Assembly (NCBI GenBank): GCA_947624745.1
Contig: CANQLR010000002.1
Span: 62,001 to 126,000, forward strand
DNA: 64,000 nucleotides
Direction: 5' to 3'
Source: an uncultured Clostridia bacterium
GTDB lineage: Bacteria > Bacillota > Clostridia > Oscillospirales > Ruminococcaceae
Position numbers and translations under genes: made by a program. Of this stretch, positions 52,784 to 60,408 are shown one piece after another. Positions within the stretch are counted from its first letter, which is position 1, and every line of letters begins with the position of its first letter. The notes under the pieces are model-generated. The model was not told the DNA's origin. It was given only the letters and a program-made list of their open reading frames with translations, and ran no database searches.

Positions 52784-53851
52784 TCAGACGGTGACTCTCC
52801 AGCCGTAGGGGTCGTTTTTCTTGCCCCACTGAATGCCGGTAAGCTCGTCGTAGAGCTTCCGGGTCAGCTCGCCTATTTTTCCGCCGCCGATCTCTATGAC
52901 CTCGTCCTTATAGCGGAGCTTTCCGACCGGCGAAACGACCGCCGCGGTGCCGGTTCCGAAGACTTCCTCAAGAGCGCCGGTTCTTGCGGCCTCGATCAGT
53001 TCATCTACGGAAATCCTTCTCTCCTCGACCTCATAGCCCCAGTCGCGGCAGAGATGGAGTATCGAATCGCGGGTGATGCCCGGGAGGATTGAGCCGTTGA
53101 GCATCGGGGTCACGACCTTGCCGGAGATCTTGAACATTATGTTCATCGAGCCGACCTCTTCGATGTACTTTCTCTCGACGCCGTCGAGCCAGAGAGCCTG
53201 GGAATAGCCGCTGTCGTGAGCCTTGACCTGCGCCGCAAGAGAGGCCGCGTAGTTGCCGCCCGTCTTGGCAAAGCCCATGCCGCCGCGGACCGCTCTGACA
53301 TACTCGTCCTCAATCCAGATGCCGACGGGGGCAAGGCCGCTCTCGTAATATGCGCCGGATGGCGAGAGGATTATGATGAACATATAGGTCTTGGAGGGCG
53401 CGACGCCGAGGTGCGGGTCGGTCGAAATCACGAACGGGCGGATATAGAGGGAAGTCCCCTCCTCGTAAGGCACCCAGTCGCGGTCGACGTCGACGACGGC
53501 CTTGACGGCCTGAACGAAGTCCTCCTCGGGGATATGGGGAATGCAGAGGCGGTCATTCGAGTTGTTCGCGCGCTTTGCGTTCATGTCGGGGCGGAAGAGG
53601 TAAACGTCGCCGCTCGCGCCTCTGTAGGCCTTCAGGCCCTCAAACATCTCCTGGCCGTAGTGCAGGACCATTGCGGCGGGGCTTAAGGTGATGTCGCCGA
53701 ACGGGACTATGCGCGGGTCGTGCCAGCCCTTGCCCTCGGTGTAGTTCATGATGAACATGTGGTCGGTGAAGATGTGGCCGAAGCCCAAAGGCTCGCCTTT
53801 TTTCGGTATCGGCTTGGGTGAAGCCGTTTTTTGGATTCTGATGTCAAGCAT
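52784..53851 (-). CDS. ilvE: Branched-chain amino acid aminotransferase
   Basis: PLP enzyme that interconverts branched-chain 2-oxoacids and Leu/Ile/Val. The 355-aa product belongs to the longer bacterial/eukaryotic IlvE type: GFGHIFTDHMFIMNY, LHYGQEMFEGLKAYRG, SLYIRPFVISTDPHLGVAPS, FAKTGGNYAASLAAQVKA (PLP Lys not in this segment) and VFGTGTAAVVSPVG. ATG 53851 follows AGGAGC; upstream codons lie before the likely ribosome binding site. It follows the oxidoreductase genes but has its own promoter. It would aminate the 2-oxoacids made by Vor. Confidence 0.94.
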   Translation of the reverse strand: MLDIRIQKTASPKPIPKKGEPLGFGHIFTDHMFIMNYTEGKGWHDPRIVPFGDITLSPAAMVLHYGQEMFEGLKAYRGASGDVYLFRPDMNAKRANNSNDRLCIPHIPEEDFVQAVKAVVDVDRDWVPYEEGTSLYIRPFVISTDPHLGVAPSKTYMFIIILSPSGAYYESGLAPVGIWIEDEYVRAVRGGMGFAKTGGNYAASLAAQVKAHDSGYSQALWLDGVERKYIEEVGSMNIMFKISGKVVTPMLNGSILPGITRDSILHLCRDWGYEVEERRISVDELIEAARTGALEEVFGTGTAAVVSPVGKLRYKDEVIEIGGGKIGELTRKLYDELTGIQWGKKNDPYGWRVTV

Positions 53852-53890
53852 TTTGATCTTGCTCCTTCTGAAAAAATTCATATCAAGCAT

Positions 53891-53919
53891 ATTATACTAC
53901 GCTAAATCGCAAAATTCAA
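53891..53919 (-). promoter_or_regulatory. Promoter for ilvE
   Basis: Minus-strand TTGAAT and TATAAT with 17-nt spacing, between the vorC stop and the ilvE start. Confidence 0.75.
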
Positions 53920-53935
53920 GTATTTTCGCGAACTT

Positions 53936-54472
53936 TTATTCGGCGTAATTGTAGCCCGCCTCTATAGCCTTGAGGTTCGCGTCGATAAGGTCGGCGTGCT
54001 TTGCCGAAACGGTCTTCGAGAGCGCTTCCTTAAGGCCGTCCATCGAGACTACGCCGGTCTCCTTTATCACCTTGCCGAGGATTATCATGTTCGCAAGTGT
54101 GGGAAGGCCGAGGTCGCGCGCTATCTTGGTCGCGGGGATATAATGCGCTTTTACGTCGGTGCGGGCGACCTTTCTTTCGATGAGAAACGAGTCGATGAAA
54201 AGCTGTGCGCCCGGGACGGCGGCGTCCTCGTATTTGTCGAGGGAGGGCAGGTTCATCGCGATCAGAATGTCGGGGTTAGAGACTATCGGGGAGCCTACCG
54301 GGGTGTCCGAGATGATGACCGAGCAGTTCGCGGTGCCGCCGCGCATTTCGGGGCCGTAGGACGGGAGCCAGCTTATCTGCCTGTCCTCCTCGAGGCCCTT
54401 ATAGGCGAGCACCTTGCCCGCAAAGAGTATCCCCTGCCCGCCGAAGCCGGCAATAAGTATCTGTGTATACAT
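53936..54472 (-). CDS. vorC: 2-oxoacid:ferredoxin oxidoreductase gamma subunit
   Basis: A 178-aa gamma subunit: [23 protein letters not shown] near the start, [22 protein letters not shown] and [13 protein letters not shown]. It is part of the four-subunit enzyme (delta, alpha, beta, gamma order) that uses TPP, CoA and ferredoxin. AAGGAGG stands 7 nt before ATG 54472, which shares a base with the beta stop; a GTG one codon upstream is less well placed. Confidence 0.93.
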
Positions 54473-55221
54473 CACTCCGCCTCCTTAGACTTGTCGCGGT
54501 AGACCCCGAGCGGATAGTAGGGTATCATGTCGGTGTCTATCCATTTGAGGGCGTTGTCGGGGGTCATGCCCCAGTTTGTCGGGCAGCTCGAAATAACCTC
54601 GATGAGAGAAAAGCCCTTTCCCTCTATCTGGTTTCTAAAAGCGCGGTTTATCGCCTTTTTCGCGGCCAGAACGTTCTTGACGTTGTTGACGGCGACCCTC
54701 TCGATATAATAGGGAGCGTCGAGCGCGGAAAGAAGCTCGCAGACCTTGATGGGGTATCCCACCGTCTTTACGTCGCGGCCGTAGGGAGAGGTCTGGGTGA
54801 CCTGACCCGGCAGCGAGGTCGGGGCCATCTGTCCGCCGGTCATGCCGTAGATGGCGTTGTTGACAAATATCACCGTGATGTTTTCGTTTCGGGTGGCGGC
54901 GTGAACGGTCTCGGCCATGCCTATCGAGGCAAGGTCGCCGTCGCCCTGATATGTGAAGATTATGCGGTCGGGCATGGCGCGCTTAAGGCCGGTGGCGACA
55001 GCGGGAGCGCGGCCGTGGGCGGCCTCGACCATGTCGCAGGAGAAATAATCGTAGCTCATGACAGCGCAGCCTACGGGAGCGACGCCGACGGTTCGGCCTA
55101 AAATACCGAGGTCGTCTATCGCTTCGGCGACAAGGCGGTGAATTATTCCGTGGGTGCAGCCCGGGCAGTAGTGAAGCGGCGCGTCGGTCAAAGCCTCAGG
55201 CTTTTTGAATACTACGGCCAT
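54472..55221 (-). CDS. vorA: 2-oxoacid:ferredoxin oxidoreductase beta subunit (TPP-binding)
   Basis: A 249-aa TPP-binding subunit: [14 protein letters not shown] with the Cxx[38 protein letters not shown], and the TPP-Mg motif [43 protein letters not shown]. The start shares a base with the alpha stop (TGATG). Substrate (2-oxoglutarate or branched-chain 2-oxoacid) is not fixed by sequence alone; the cluster favours branched-chain. Confidence 0.94.
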
Positions 55222-56279
55222 CAGTTTTCTCCCCCTTCCATCTTGATTATGGCATTCAGAACTTCCTCCGGCGAGGGGATCATTCCCCCGACGCGGGAGC
55301 AAAGAGTTACGGGTTTTTTACATTCCTCGGCGAGGCGGATATCCTCGATCATCTGGCCCATGGAGAGCTCGACCGAGATGAAGCCCTTGACCTTATCGGC
55401 GGTCTTTCTTATGACCCCGGACGGGAACGGCCAGAGGGTTATCGGGCGGATGAGACCCGCCTTTATGCCGCGCTTTCTTGCCTCGGTTATGGCGTTTTTT
55501 GAGACCCTTGCGGCGATGCCGAACGCGACTACGCAGATATCGGCGTCGTCGGTCATGTACTCCTCATACATCACTTCATTTTTCTCGACAGAGGCGTACT
55601 TTTCGTATCTTTCGAGATTTTTCTGCTCTAACTGCTCGGGAACGAGATAGAGGGAGTTTACGATGTTGTGCTCGCGCCTGTTCTCGGTGCCTGTGACCGT
55701 CCAAGGCTTGTCGGGCTTATATTCCGCGGGCTCGGGAAGCTCGACCGGCTCCATCATCTGTCCCATCGTGCCGTCCGCAAGAAGCATCGCGGGCATGCGG
55801 TATTTATCGGCAAGATCGAACGCTTTTACGGTAAGATCCGCCATTTCCTGCACCGAGGCGGGGGCCAAGACTATCAGGTGATAGTCGCCGTGGCCGCCGC
55901 CCTTAGTGGCCTGGAAATAGTCCGACTGCGAGGGCTGGATCCCCCCGAGGCCCGGGCCGCCGCGCTGTACGTTGACGATGAGCGCGGGAAGATCGCACCC
56001 GGCAAGGTAGGAGATGCCCTCCTGCTTTAAGGAAACTCCGGGGCTTGAGGAGCTCGTCATGGCCCTTAAGCCGGCGGAAGCTACGCCGTAGACCATGTTT
56101 ACCGCGGAAATTTCACTCTCGGCCTGTAAAAACGTGCCGCCGATCTTGGGCATACGCTTCGACATATACGCCGCGACCTCCGTCTGGGGGGTTATCGGGT
56201 AGCCGAAATAGTGGCGGCACCCTGCGCGTATCGCGGCCTCGGCGATTGCCTCGTTGCCCTTCATAAGTACTTTTGCCAT
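55221..56279 (-). CDS. vorB: 2-oxoacid:ferredoxin oxidoreductase alpha subunit (VorB-like)
   Basis: A 352-aa alpha subunit starting [48 protein letters not shown], a start I associate with subunits called VorB (3-methyl-2-oxobutanoate:ferredoxin oxidoreductase). It also has [59 protein letters not shown] precedes the ATG. It sits between the ferredoxin and beta genes. Confidence 0.93.
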
Positions 56280-56289
56280 GTTTTCCTCC

Positions 56290-56496
56290 TTACTTCTCCA
56301 CCGTGATGACGCAGTCGGGGCACATGGTGGCGCAGAAGGCGCAGCCTATGCACTTTGACTGGTCGGTCATTTCGGCGGGAGAGTGACCCTTTTTGTTGAT
56401 CTTGTCCTTGGCGATGACTATGAGCTTTTTCGGGCAGGCCGAAACGCAAAGCCCGCAGCCTTTGCAAACGTCGGTCTCAAACGTGACCTTTGGCAT
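56290..56496 (-). CDS. vorD: 2[4Fe-4S] ferredoxin subunit of the oxidoreductase
   Basis: A 68-aa ferredoxin-like delta subunit with two cluster motifs: CKGCGLCVSACP and CIGCAFCATMCP. It transfers electrons between the TPP site and external ferredoxin. AAGGAGG precedes the ATG. First of the four subunit genes. Confidence 0.94.
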   Translation of the reverse strand: MPKVTFETDVCKGCGLCVSACPKKLIVIAKDKINKKGHSPAEMTDQSKCIGCAFCATMCPDCVITVEK

Positions 56497-56539
56497 ATAA
56501 AAATTACCTCCTTTTATTTGTCGGAAATTATAGTCTTTA

Positions 56540-57205
56540 TCAGTAAAGCTCGTAATATTTTTTCTGAATATCTATAGGGTAAACGTTTTTCAGATCTACC
56601 AAGCCCGCAAGGGAGCGCTCGACCGAATTAAAAAGGATCGGCAGACCGCTTAGGCGGGAGAGCTCCTCGGCCTTTTCACTGCCCTCCAGAACCGTTTCGG
56701 GGACGGTAAGGCGGCTGAGGTTAGTGTTATTGACTATCCCGGTGAAGGGTATTCCCCCGGCGTGCTCTATCTCGCGCATGACCTCGTATGCGTCGGCGGC
56801 GTTTTGGGTAAGCGGGCGGCAGAAGTTCGCGACGAAGATCATCTCGAAGTCGTTTTCCTCCAAGATATAGGGTGCAAACCTGCCGAGGGCGTAGGCCCCG
56901 CGGTCGTCTCCGCCGATGTCTAAAACTGCGTATCGGAGGCGGTTTTGCACCACGCCGTACATCTCTGACGGAAGGGCGGGGAGGTCGACGTTTGAGTTAG
57001 CGTACTCGGAGGAGACGGTCTCGATGCCGTGAGCCTTAAGTAGCGCGGCGGAGTCCTTGGTGCGGAAATAGGGGTTTACGATATCGAGGTCGGCGATAAC
57101 GACGCGGTCGAAGCGTTTTTTTAGGTCTATCGCCCAATTCACGGCGAGATTTGTCTTGCCCGAGCCGTAGTGCCCGGCGAAGAGGGTAACGCGTTTGAAG
57201 TTCAT
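56540..57205 (-). CDS. P-loop ATPase upstream of the oxidoreductase genes
   Basis: A 221-aa MinD/ParA-like (SIMIBI-type) ATPase: VTLFAGHYGSGKTNLAVNWA (Walker A, residues about 7-26), VVIADLDIVNPYFRTKD, and VLDIGGDDRGAYALGRFAP (Walker B region). Such proteins sit beside ferredoxin-oxidoreductase genes in other Clostridia, in my recollection; a role in metallocluster or cofactor supply is possible but unproved. It is 44 nt upstream of vorD. Upstream lies the inverted repeat pair, with no convincing promoter. Confidence 0.8.
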   Translation of the reverse strand: MNFKRVTLFAGHYGSGKTNLAVNWAIDLKKRFDRVVIADLDIVNPYFRTKDSAALLKAHGIETVSSEYANSNVDLPALPSEMYGVVQNRLRYAVLDIGGDDRGAYALGRFAPYILEENDFEMIFVANFCRPLTQNAADAYEVMREIEHAGGIPFTGIVNNTNLSRLTVPETVLEGSEKAEELSRLSGLPILFNSVERSLAGLVDLKNVYPIDIQKKYYELY

Positions 57206-57249
57206 AGTGTGCTCCAGGGTGGGATAAATCTAAAGTAATGGTAAAGCAA

Positions 57250-57452
57250 AACCGAAAAGGTTTCGCCGGCCTTTCCTCAAAAGGCCGCAGGATCCAAGGG
57301 CAGAGCCCTTGGTCGCGCTCCGCAGAGCGCGAAATCCCCTACGCGCAAGCGAGCGCAGGAGGATAGCCAAAATCAGTCCGGTGGACTGTTTTGGCGTAGG
57401 GAACCCTCGCCGGGGGTTCCCTCTTTATTTGCCGAACGATGAGTGAGGCAAA
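57250..57452 (-). repeat. Structured repeat M1, copy C1 (inverted)
   Basis: Read on the minus strand, this 203-bp copy keeps the hairpin order: TTTGCC...GGCAAA; AGGGAACCC...GGGTTCCCT; GCCAAAACAGTCC-ac-CGGACTGATTTTGGC; P5 CGCGCTC-tgcg-GAGCGCG; P6 CCAAGGGC-tct-GCCCTTGG; P7 CGGCCTTT-tgagg-AAAGGCCG. P2, P3 and P5 differ from copy B with pairing preserved. Confidence 0.85.
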
Positions 57453-57561
57453 CTCTGCACAAAACTTTGATTCAGCAGCCGGCTTAAGAGGGCGCAGAGT
57501 TAATTTCCGAGCCTTTACCTACAGCGCAACCATTTAATTAACTGCTTAGCCCCGGCTTTTC

Positions 57562-57764
57562 TTTGCCTCGCTCGTCGCTCGGCAAACGGGGAGACCCCCG
57601 GCGAGGGTCTCCCCACGTCGCAACAGCCCACAGGGCTGATTGCTCCTCCCTGTCCTGCGCTGGCTTACGCCGTGGGGATTTCGCCCGTTGTGACGGGCGA
57701 CGAGGGCTGCTCGCCCTCGACCTCGCCCGCTTTTTGAGGAAAAGCGGGGTAAAACCTTTTTAGT
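57562..57764 (+). repeat. Structured repeat M1, copy C2
   Basis: A 203-bp copy in plus orientation, inverted relative to C1. P1 to P3 match copy B closely; P5 is CGCCCGT-tgtg-ACGGGCG, P6 CGAGGGC-tgct-GCCCTCG and P7 CCCGCTTTT-tgagg-AAAAGCGGG, all with changes on both sides of the stem. Confidence 0.85.
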
Positions 57765-57792
57765 TTGTCTCAATCAATGGTTGGGTGCTAAA

Positions 57793-60066
57793 TCAGAGTT
57801 TATTTCTCTGTATCTTCCCGCTTATCGTCTTCGGGAGCTCGTCCCGGAACGCTATCACGCGCGGATACTTATACGGCGCAGTATGGCTCTTGACGTAGTT
57901 CTGGATCTCCTTCTTGAGCTCCTCCGAGGCGACTGTGCCCTTCGTGAGAACGATGCTCGCCTTGACTATCTGTCCCCTTATCTCGTCAGGAACGGCCGAA
58001 ACGCCGCACTCTAAAACGTATGGGAGTTCCATGATCACGCTCTCGATCTCGAACGGACCAATCCTGTATCCCGAGGACTTGATGACGTCGTCGATCCTCG
58101 AAACATACCAGAAATAGCCGTCCTCGTCACGCCACGCGGTGTCGCCGGTGTGGTAGTAGCCGTCGTGCCATGCCTCGCGGGTGAGCTTTTCGTCAAGATA
58201 ATACTCCTTGTAAAGCCCTATCGGGATCTCCTCGGAGGTCTTTATGCAGATCTCGCCGACTTCGCCGTTCTGGACGGGGTTGCCGTCGGGGTCTAAAATG
58301 TCGATGTCATACTGCGGGGACGCCTTGCCCATCGAGCCGTACTTCGGTACGTCGCCGTAGAGGTTGCCGATGACGAGCGTCGTCTCGGTCTGGCCGAAGC
58401 CCTCCATGATTTCGAGCCCCGTCGCCTGCTTGAACTGCTTCGCGACCTCGGGGTTCAAAGCCTCCCCGGCGGTGGTCATGTGGTGGATAGAGCTCAGGTC
58501 GAATATCGAGAGGTCTTCCTTGATCATCATGCGGAGCATCGTCGGAGGCGCGCAGAATGTTGTGATATTATATTTTGCAAACATCGGCAGGATATCCGCC
58601 GCGTCGAACTTGTCGAAGTCGTAGACGAACACCGCGCCCTCGCAGAGCCACTGGCCGTAGAGCTTGCCCCAGAGCGACTTGCCCCAGCCGGTGTCGGATA
58701 TCGTCAGGTGAAGGCCGTCCCGCTCGCAACAGTGCCAGTATTTCGCGGTGACGAAGTGACCGAGGGCGTAGGTGTGCGCGTGGGCGGCCATCTTCGGGTT
58801 GCCGGTGGTGCCGGAGGTGAAGAACATCAGCGCCATGTCGCTGCCCGCGGAGCAGTCCTCTGGGCGCTCGAATTTGCCGGTGTAGAGCTGGTATTCGTTG
58901 TCGAAGTCGCGCCAGCCCTCCTTCGCCCCGCCTACAAGTATCTTCGTCTTGACGGTCGGGCAGTTTTCGGCGGCCTTCTCGGCAATGTCGGCGACGTCGC
59001 CGTCGGCGGTGCAGAGTATCGCCGAAACGCCTGCGCGGTCGAATCTGTATTCAAAATCGTGCTGCTTGAGCTGATTTGTCGCGGGGATAGCGACTGCCCC
59101 AAGCTTGTGAAGGGCTACCATCGCGAACCAGAACTGGTAGTGGCGCTTTAAAACGAGCATGACCTTGTCGCCGCGCTTTATCCCGAGCGAGCGAAGGTAG
59201 TTTGCGGTCTGATTAGACGCGCGCTTGATGTCCTTGAAGGTAAATCTGCGCTCGACCTTGTGCTTGTCGACATGGATCATAGCTAACTTGTCGGGGTATT
59301 TGTCGGCGATGGCGTCCACGCAGTCGAAGCCGAAGTTGAAGGTCTCGGTGTCGTGGAATTTCATGTCTACGAGCTTTCCGCTCTCGTCCTCGATGAAATC
59401 GACGAAGCGCTCGACCAGAAGCTTTTCCTTCTTCGGGCGGTTGGCCTGAATGAGGGAGGTGCGGGCGGTCTCCTCGGTCTCGTTTTCGCCGGGGAGGACT
59501 ACCGCCACGAAGGTGCAGTCCTTGCCGTTCACGGCTATCATGCCGTGAGGGGTGGCGGAGTTATAATAGATAGAATCGCCCTCGTTTAAAATTTCGGTGT
59601 GATTTCCGACCTGCACCTTGAGGCTGCCGGAGATTATGAGGTCGAACTCCTGCCCGTCGTGAGTCGTAAGATGTATCGGCATATTCTGCTGGGCCTCGCT
59701 GTATTCGTACTTGACCCAGTAGGGCTCGGCTATCTTGTCGCGGAATTTGGGCGCTAAGTTTGCGATGTCGATGCCCTTTTCGTGGGCGGTGACCTGGCCC
59801 TGTCCCCTTCTTGTCAGGGTATAGCTTGAAAGCCTCGCGGCGGTGCGGCCCTCCAAAAGGTCGGTGAGGTCGATATCGAAGGCGAGCGCGCACTTATGGA
59901 TAAAGGTGAACGGCAGGTCCGCGGTGCCGGATTCGTAGCTTATGTACTCCTCCTCGGTGACCTCCGTCTTTTCCGCTGTCTCAGCGGTGCTCCAGCCCAT
60001 TATCTCGCGCATTTCGCGAATTCTCTCCGCGACCTCTACAAGCTGCGTTTCGGTTTTTTTGGACAT
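57793..60066 (-). CDS. HTH-cupin-acyl-CoA synthetase fusion protein
   Basis: A 757-aa fusion. Residues about 8-72 form an XRE-type HTH (IREMREIMGWSTAETAEKTEVTEEEYISYESG). Residues about 115-195 form a cupin (HLTTHDGQEFDLIISGSLKVQVGNHTEILNEGDSIYYNSATPHGM). From about 220 it is an AMP-forming ligase: MFFTSGTTGNPKMAAHAHT near 415, GFGQTETT, YHTGDTAWRDEDGYFWYVSRIDDVIKSSGYRIGPFEIES and C-terminal PKTISGKIQRNKL with the catalytic Lys. The ligase resembles medium-chain (MACS) enzymes, which accept short branched acids. Controlled by the T-box. HTH-cupin may give autoregulation or sense acyl groups. Confidence 0.93.
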   Translation of the reverse strand: MSKKTETQLVEVAERIREMREIMGWSTAETAEKTEVTEEEYISYESGTADLPFTFIHKCALAFDIDLTDLLEGRTAARLSSYTLTRRGQGQVTAHEKGIDIANLAPKFRDKIAEPYWVKYEYSEAQQNMPIHLTTHDGQEFDLIISGSLKVQVGNHTEILNEGDSIYYNSATPHGMIAVNGKDCTFVAVVLPGENETEETARTSLIQANRPKKEKLLVERFVDFIEDESGKLVDMKFHDTETFNFGFDCVDAIADKYPDKLAMIHVDKHKVERRFTFKDIKRASNQTANYLRSLGIKRGDKVMLVLKRHYQFWFAMVALHKLGAVAIPATNQLKQHDFEYRFDRAGVSAILCTADGDVADIAEKAAENCPTVKTKILVGGAKEGWRDFDNEYQLYTGKFERPEDCSAGSDMALMFFTSGTTGNPKMAAHAHTYALGHFVTAKYWHCCERDGLHLTISDTGWGKSLWGKLYGQWLCEGAVFVYDFDKFDAADILPMFAKYNITTFCAPPTMLRMMIKEDLSIFDLSSIHHMTTAGEALNPEVAKQFKQATGLEIMEGFGQTETTLVIGNLYGDVPKYGSMGKASPQYDIDILDPDGNPVQNGEVGEICIKTSEEIPIGLYKEYYLDEKLTREAWHDGYYHTGDTAWRDEDGYFWYVSRIDDVIKSSGYRIGPFEIESVIMELPYVLECGVSAVPDEIRGQIVKASIVLTKGTVASEELKKEIQNYVKSHTAPYKYPRVIAFRDELPKTISGKIQRNKL

Positions 60067-60112
60067 GTTTTTCTCTCCTTGTCGTAAAAAGTGATCCGGG
60101 ACGGAGCATACA

Positions 60113-60373
60113 AAAAGCCCGCCCCAAAGAAACTTTGAGACGGGTCATAATACCCGCGGTACCACTCAAATTGCGGAAAGATCCGCCGCTCAACGGCTCG
60201 AAAAAGCCTTCCGCTATAACGCGCGGACGCGTACAGCTCTAAACATAAAATGCGTTAAGCTGTCGGCTCAAAAGTGATCCGAGACCGCGCGTTGTCTGTC
60301 GGTTTTCAGCTGCCCCGACTCTCTGAAAGACAGGTGAGCACGGCTCCGTCTTTGTCATCGCCTTTTAATATTA
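60113..60373 (-). promoter_or_regulatory. T-box riboswitch upstream of the acyl-CoA synthetase fusion
   Basis: On the minus strand the leader has stem I elements (CAGAGAGTCGGGGCAGCTG), the T-box core GAGTGGTACCGCGG (core bulge at 60155-60164) and a terminator GACCCG...CGGGC followed by TTTTT before the gene. In the stem I 3' side the sequence GGATCACTTTTGAGC places AUC, followed by a purine, as the likely specifier (60276-60278), pointing to tRNA-Ile. The T-box identity is secure; the specifier is a by-eye assignment. The class is read-through on uncharged tRNA. Confidence 0.93.
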
Positions 60374-60379
60374 AACTTG

Positions 60380-60408
60380 ATTATATCACTACCTCGGCCG
60401 GGTGTCAA
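60380..60408 (-). promoter_or_regulatory. Perfect-consensus promoter for the T-box transcript
   Basis: Minus-strand TTGACA and TATAAT with 17 nt between them; the predicted start is at about 60373. Confidence 0.92.

Follow-up and report, generated by a model that had tools for sequence, protein, structure and literature searches.

A T-box-controlled gene cluster of an uncultured Clostridia bacterium predicted to make isoleucine from 2-methylbutyrate, with specifier codons as candidate labels of synthetase substrates in its relatives

According to work cited in PMC7356843 and PMC2812497, which goes back to the 1960s, rumen anaerobes make branched-chain amino acids out of isobutyrate, 2-methylbutyrate and isovalerate. 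The route from 2-methylbutyrate to isoleucine was described by Robinson, Allison and Peel (cited in PMC7356843), and the reductive carboxylation of 2-methylbutyrate to isoleucine has been inferred from the genome of M. ruminantium (PMC2812497). Here we describe a cluster with candidate genes for this route in a 64,000-nucleotide stretch of contig CANQLR010000002.1 from an uncultured Clostridia bacterium (the window, by which we mean the whole stretch analysed). The cluster occupies positions 52784-60408 and consists of a T-box leader, a fusion of helix-turn-helix (HTH), cupin and acyl-CoA synthetase parts (AL), the genes of a 2-oxoacid:ferredoxin oxidoreductase (Vor) and the aminotransferase gene ilvE. 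It is likely that the cluster makes isoleucine from exogenous 2-methylbutyrate and that in relatives the specifier codon of the leader names the acid of each synthetase. A biosynthetic role is the best supported, and the surprising part is that each amino acid would have its own synthetase, named by the codon of a T-box.

T-boxes turn genes on at amino acid shortage, a response that fits synthesis. As the first-pass annotation had proposed, a T-box and a consensus promoter precede AL. The leader RNA (60367-60133; all features of the cluster lie on the minus strand) matches RF00230 over the full model (1-219) at 95 bits against a gathering score of 93 (E 1.4e-19) and is the sole RNA element in the 64-kb window at the Rfam gathering threshold, and just upstream of it lies a sigma-70 type promoter, TTGACA-17-TATAAT, with 12/12 consensus bases (60408-60380). 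The T-box core GUGGUACCGCG (60155-60165), which is the side of the antiterminator that binds the tRNA acceptor end, was located by sequence and model alignment, and an intrinsic terminator competing with the antiterminator (60144-60118; a 12-pair stem and then a T-rich tail) overlaps the end of the T-box. The specifier codon, read from the model alignment, is AUC for isoleucine (60278-60276), and the same column holds AUC in the Ile-type relatives. The earlier suggestion that an AUC specifier would tie the cluster to isoleucine is thus supported, and the codon suits AL, Vor and ilvE as parts of an isoleucine pathway. The T-box is predicted to act by tRNA-dependent antitermination.

The reading register was controlled within the same genome, which has 10 T-boxes, 4 of them above the cut-off. 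With genes named by their best NCBIfam hit and codons read in the same register as in the window, seven of the eight other T-boxes before named genes read the amino acid of their own gene (tyrS UAC, leuA CUC, trpE UGG, cysE UGC, valS GUC, pheS UUC and alaS GCU). The mismatch was GAC before hisS, as found in hisS-aspS operons, and the tenth T-box, before thrS, is a short match with no readable codon. Among the nine that could be read, only the T-box of the window has an Ile codon. A misread register was ruled out by this control and by the Val-type leaders of relatives, in which the codon switches while the flank that follows it stays alike.

The gene content agrees with the first-pass annotation, which had listed an HTH-cupin-acyl-CoA synthetase fusion and, downstream on the same strand, a P-loop ATPase, four Vor-like subunits and ilvE. 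AL (57793-60066) has HTH_19, Cupin_2, AMP-binding and AMP-binding_C domains, all over the Pfam cut-offs, and is an Ile-type, predicted 2-methylbutyryl-CoA synthetase. VorB, the alpha subunit of the oxidoreductase (55221-56279), passes NF005507 with 560 bits (cut-off 399) and is predicted to be active on branched-chain 2-oxoacids, the name of the model alone being no proof. The product of ilvE (52784-53851, with the open reading frame reaching 53890) passes ilvE_II TIGR01123 with 417 bits (cut-off 250); its start is inferred to be the ATG at 53851, where the ribosome site is better. A synthetase, a ferredoxin-dependent 2-oxoacid synthase, a transaminase and a T-box are thus all present, in a series that is interrupted by a repeat after AL. 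When tRNA-Ile is poorly charged, the AUC T-box would bind the uncharged tRNA-Ile, the terminator would not form and the operon would be read. AL would convert exogenous 2-methylbutyrate, ATP and CoA to 2-methylbutyryl-CoA, Vor would join this with CO2 and electrons from reduced ferredoxin to give 3-methyl-2-oxopentanoate, and IlvE would transaminate the latter to isoleucine. The duplicated AL of relatives, which follows a Val T-box, would likewise lead from isobutyrate to valine.

By sequence, the solved structure nearest to AL is 3ETC (MacsMa of Methanosarcina acetivorans), with 622 bits over the ligase part; the first-pass annotation had mentioned a methanogen MACS-type synthetase that prefers 2-methylbutyrate. 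The preferred acid of MacsMa is 2-methylbutyrate, its Trp259 is critical for substrate binding and a Gly replaces Trp416 of Acs (PMC10455477). With a 23-residue numbering shift between that paper and the 3ETC chain, derived from the YHTGD and Gly459-Lys461 sites, Trp259 aligns with W466 of AL and the Gly with G558. The biosynthetic rather than catabolic direction favoured in the first-pass annotation appears probable from this kinship, the AUC T-box and the VorB and ilvE_II model matches.

The survey of neighbourhoods, for which we used related genomes (from 245) and 80 named contigs, the best 80 of at least 587 relatives and many of them titled as ruminant-gut, gave more than had been predicted: a paralogous synthetase with a Val specifier in the same operon. 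The fuller operon common in relatives runs T-box, AL1, second T-box, AL2, P-loop nucleoside triphosphatase (NTPase), ferredoxin, VorB, beta, gamma and ilvE, with ilvE placed earlier in some and little distance between the AL and NTPase genes. The leader codon is AUC before AL1 and GUA or GUC before AL2. In a first set of 175 full-length ALs, a T-box core lay at most 400 bases upstream in 157, and the specifier column read AUC in 102, GUA in 50 and GUC in 4, with 1 unread (15 short loci had been dropped as duplicates, and some contigs are still in both collections). A set of 200 ALs, all distinct proteins, held 118 of Ile type (AUC), 58 of Val type (GUA/GUC) and 24 unread, some of which start near a contig end while others show no core. 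In a FastTree phylogeny of these 200 the Ile and Val labels are parted by one change, at a split with support 100; the HTH-cupin part alone also needs 1 change and the ligase part alone 3. Among the 40 named loci that extend 9.5 kb or further downstream, VorB was found in 35, the NTPase in 35, ilvE in 30 and a second AL in 28.

Other arrangements were also seen. At L168:3335-10010 (genome G059), only about 20 bases separate AL1 from a Val-clade AL2 and a second T-box is absent, so that both genes would respond to isoleucine; this second AL is classed as Val-type by clade only, and that of G113 sits away from the operon. An unfused form, with HTH-cupin and AMP-ligase as adjacent separate genes, occurs at L068:1559-3811, L204:8515-10782 and L205:9412-11625, in the latter two downstream of the Vor genes. 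An AL behind an AUC T-box is also carried by L147, from Erysipelotrichaceae bacterium NK3D112, which judging from its title is probably an isolate.

One residue of the synthetases fits the codons. W466 and G558 are kept in 200/200 ALs, and W444 is also invariant. In a comparison of 97 Ile-type with 52 Val-type ALs, 16 positions differed at 85% or more on both sides; of these, 14 fall in the HTH-cupin part, which leaves just 462 and 477 for the ligase part. Within the motif DTGW[G/A]K, residue 462 tells the types apart: 117/118 Ile-type ALs have Gly there (codon of Gly462 at 58681-58683 in the window) and 58/58 Val-type ALs have Ala, whereas 477 separates the types less cleanly. Unread ALs agree with their place in the tree, with Ala462 in 9/9 on the Val side and Gly462 in 14/15 on the Ile side. 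The residue of 3ETC that aligns with 462 is a Gly and precedes the MacsMa Trp259 by four residues, and the extra methyl of Ala462 would suit a substrate one carbon smaller, isobutyrate versus 2-methylbutyrate. The HTH-cupin part comprises AL residues 1-215. As 14 of the 16 type-telling positions fall in it, it may sense a different ligand in each type.

The occurrence of the synthetases is complementary to that of the de novo genes. From the 245 genomes a panel of 80 was chosen: 29 with an operon-type AL or one at 64-78%, 16 of those with an AL at about 60% and 35 without. The group of 29 is not every such genome, as several of low completeness were left out; it includes 15 genomes at 84-94% completeness, G234 at 6% contamination, and G242 and G091, which have no T-box core before AL, G242 also having no adjoining Vor genes. 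AL presence was read from the best matches listed, and ALs of this kind score far above the last of them; a tally of 225/245 genomes from the AL protein search counts generic AMP-ligases and was not used. ilvC was found in 8/29, 5/16 and 31/35 genomes of the three groups, and ilvD over the cut-off in the same genomes. VorB over the cut-off was found in 27/29 (fragments in the other two), 16/16 and 1/35. Within the 29, ilvC occurs in 2/23 genomes with a Val-type AL versus 6/6 without one among the matches listed (Fisher p 5.9e-5, these tests ignoring the relatedness of the genomes). With G242 removed the counts are 2/23 versus 5/5 (p 2.1e-4), and in the 14 genomes at least 95% complete 1/9 versus 5/5 (p 0.003). 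Both states occur within one family (f21), where G178 and G091 have ilvC and no Val-type AL and G198 and G042 the reverse. Five of the six Val-negative genomes also have ilvA or cimA, and G014 has neither.

A similar pattern was seen for leucine. A further T-box (CUC) comes after some operons, and the genes behind it encode an HMGL/LeuA-dimer protein, a TIM-barrel-AMP-ligase fusion and, in the cases checked, an amidohydrolase (L063:10825-15809, also L054, L056, L057, L058 and L059). A T-box core accompanies 19 of the 32 distinct HMGL genes found, and the 17 readable codons (CUC 14, CUG 3) are all for leucine, with CUC taken by position in leader L138, which has two candidates. Within the 29 genomes true leuC was found in 2/24 with the TIM-barrel fusion versus 5/5 without (p 1.8e-4), the latter being 4/4 when G242 is removed (p 7e-4). 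The trend holds in all 80 genomes, yet leuC is present in 9/38 with the fusion. The Leu T-box module is perhaps a candidate isovalerate-to-leucine module. On balance we lean towards the wider reading that three T-box activation modules (Ile AUC, Val GUA/GUC, Leu CUC/CUG), sharing one Vor and each with a codon that names the acid, took the place of the de novo synthesis of branched-chain amino acids in many Clostridia of the rumen and gut. The corresponding division of enzymes, with the Ile and Val modules on paralogous HTH-cupin synthetases and the Leu module on the LeuA-like protein and the TIM-barrel-AMP-ligase fusion, seems probable to the same extent.

The genome of the window itself has the Ile module only, with no Val-type AL among the matches listed and no TIM-barrel fusion found. 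Behind its CUC T-box lies a leu operon, leuA-leuC-leuD-leuB-ilvB-ilvN-ilvC-ilvD (L154:2614 onwards; leuC, leuD, leuB, ilvB and ilvN named by eye), and ilvA is located elsewhere. As this operon is under a Leu T-box, synthesis of valine and leucine would answer to leucine there; the only readable Ile T-box of the genome would drive the branched-acid operon. The first-pass annotation had named a complete de novo pathway, combined with no label from branched acids, as what would speak against the route. Of this the first half was found, as the de novo branched-chain pathway is seemingly complete (ilvA and leuACDB-ilvBNCD), and the cluster would thus be a second route in its own organism, supplementary when 2-methylbutyrate is at hand and not a replacement. 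The idea that the operon exists for want of de novo genes in this organism was rejected, because those genes are present.

Several observations weigh against the proposed route. With ilvA, ilvBNCD and leuABCD the genome of the window does not need it, and among the Val-type genomes two, G089 and G192, retain ilvC. In the 16 genomes with an AL at about 60%, the AL has an AUC T-box in 11 and no T-box core in 5 and adjoins Vor only in G071. In 14 others of this group the Vor genes form operons apart from AL, next to which no T-box core was found. Eleven of the 16 have neither ilvC nor, among the matches listed, a fused Val-type AL, and in these the task must fall to other synthetases. AL lacks Vor genes in reach in 5/40 of the long named loci. 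At the Rfam gathering score 8 T-boxes were found in 7/20 relatives' loci, and a laxer E-value gave nine in three loci, of which three were Ile, three Val and three Leu T-boxes and five exceeded the gathering score. Most of the relatives' T-boxes score below gathering, and their codons therefore rest on the core motif and the alignment. Further, AL falls under the MbcS cut-off, it is parted from the Vor genes by a repeat at 57210-57790, and a separate promoter-like site precedes ilvE.

The last two of these, which were not in the first-pass annotation, bear on the alternative that survives best, namely that in this genome only AL is under the T-box, and that the Vor genes and ilvE are separate units of a pathway that is decaying or loosely coupled. 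We consider this unlikely, if clearly the least so of the alternatives. The dispersed intergenic repeats between AL and the NTPase gene (about 580 bp, 127 matches in the own genome, found on both strands) leave co-transcription in the window unproven, the site before ilvE (53919-53891) has 10/12 consensus bases, with 11 such sites in the region versus 3.7 expected in shuffles, and the full de novo pathway also suits such a decay. However, the gap has no minus-strand promoter-like site and just one weak minus-strand terminator-like stem (6 pairs, 57388-57374), the open reading frames are intact, and in relatives the AL and NTPase genes are near each other. AL and the downstream genes probably share one transcript, which would read through the repeat. 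The contig of the nearest named relative (L069) stops about 600 bases past AL.

An improbable alternative is that AL feeds branched-chain fatty acid synthesis, with 2-methylbutyryl-CoA as a lipid primer and the Ile T-box signalling lack of the usual primer source. Lipid priming is the role of MbcS in Staphylococcus aureus, an enzyme selective for the activation of 2-methylbutyrate and isobutyrate that supplies FabH (PMC10026030). MbcS (NF047394) is also the best NCBIfam match of AL, and we rejected membership of AL in that family and regard it as a relative only, since the 449 bits, from a model that spans only the ligase part (256-757), are below the cut-off of 850. Against the lipid primer stand the Vor genes beside AL in 35/40 and ilvE in 30/40 of the long named loci, and it would not explain the absence of ilvC from 21/23 genomes with a Val-type AL. 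The remaining alternative, a catabolic operon in which acyl-CoAs arise from branched-chain amino acids through IlvE and Vor, with AL acting on the products, has in its favour that oxidation is the direction for which Vor enzymes are best known, but it is very improbable. T-boxes respond to scarcity of the amino acid by turning genes on, AMP-forming synthetases do not as a rule regain ATP, and in genomes with the Val and Leu modules ilvC and leuC are mostly absent.

The ferredoxin-like delta subunit (56290-56496; 68 aa, under the length limit of the open reading frame list) has Fer4 domains, the thiamine pyrophosphate-binding beta subunit (54472-55221) matches PF02775, with its start inferred at 55221, and the gamma subunit (53936-54475) matches PF01558. 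The SIMIBI-type P-loop NTPase (56540-57205) has a weak CbiA match under the cut-off (20.8 bits) and no match in the NCBIfam search. Its predicted structure (predicted local distance difference test, pLDDT, 87) has the signal recognition particle GTPases and HypB as nearest folds, which indicates the general SIMIBI class only. It adjoins the Vor genes in 16/16 operon loci and in 14/16 further loci, the latter mostly Vor operons without AL, and is perhaps a maturation factor of the oxidoreductase.

The cluster thus provides candidate genes for the branched-acid route, with an RNA code that would predict the substrate of each enzyme and a single-residue difference that goes with it. Ruminococcus albus and R. 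flavefaciens are known to need branched acids. If this is true, genomes would tell which gut bacteria depend on their neighbours for branched acids, which bears on the isoacid feeding of ruminants, and T-box specifiers could be offered as substrate labels for enzymes with no assigned specificity.

Compared with known systems, the leader agrees with RF00230 in its complete consensus match, specifier, conserved core and terminator, and it differs in controlling an acyl-CoA synthetase; neither of the T-box surveys PMC2494555 and PMC3766115 mentions CoA synthetases or ligases or ferredoxin in its main text. AL shares with MacsMa (3ETC) the ligase part and the pocket Trp (W466) and Gly (G558), and differs in its N-terminal HTH-cupin part and its place behind a T-box. 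To MbcS of S. aureus, which uses 2-methylbutyrate and isobutyrate, it is related as to its best NCBIfam match, but it scores below the cut-off and MbcS feeds lipid synthesis; the word T-box does not occur in the text of the MbcS paper seen in part (PMC10026030). In the open-licence literature we found no account of this operon and no bacterial gene set for the route; one paper considered, PMC7382037, treats syntrophic breakdown. With the reductive carboxylation of branched volatile acids in rumen anaerobes the cluster shares the three predicted steps of activation, ferredoxin-driven carboxylation and transamination. As cited in the papers above, that work is biochemical, whereas the present proposal concerns genes and their regulation, with a separate synthetase for each amino acid.

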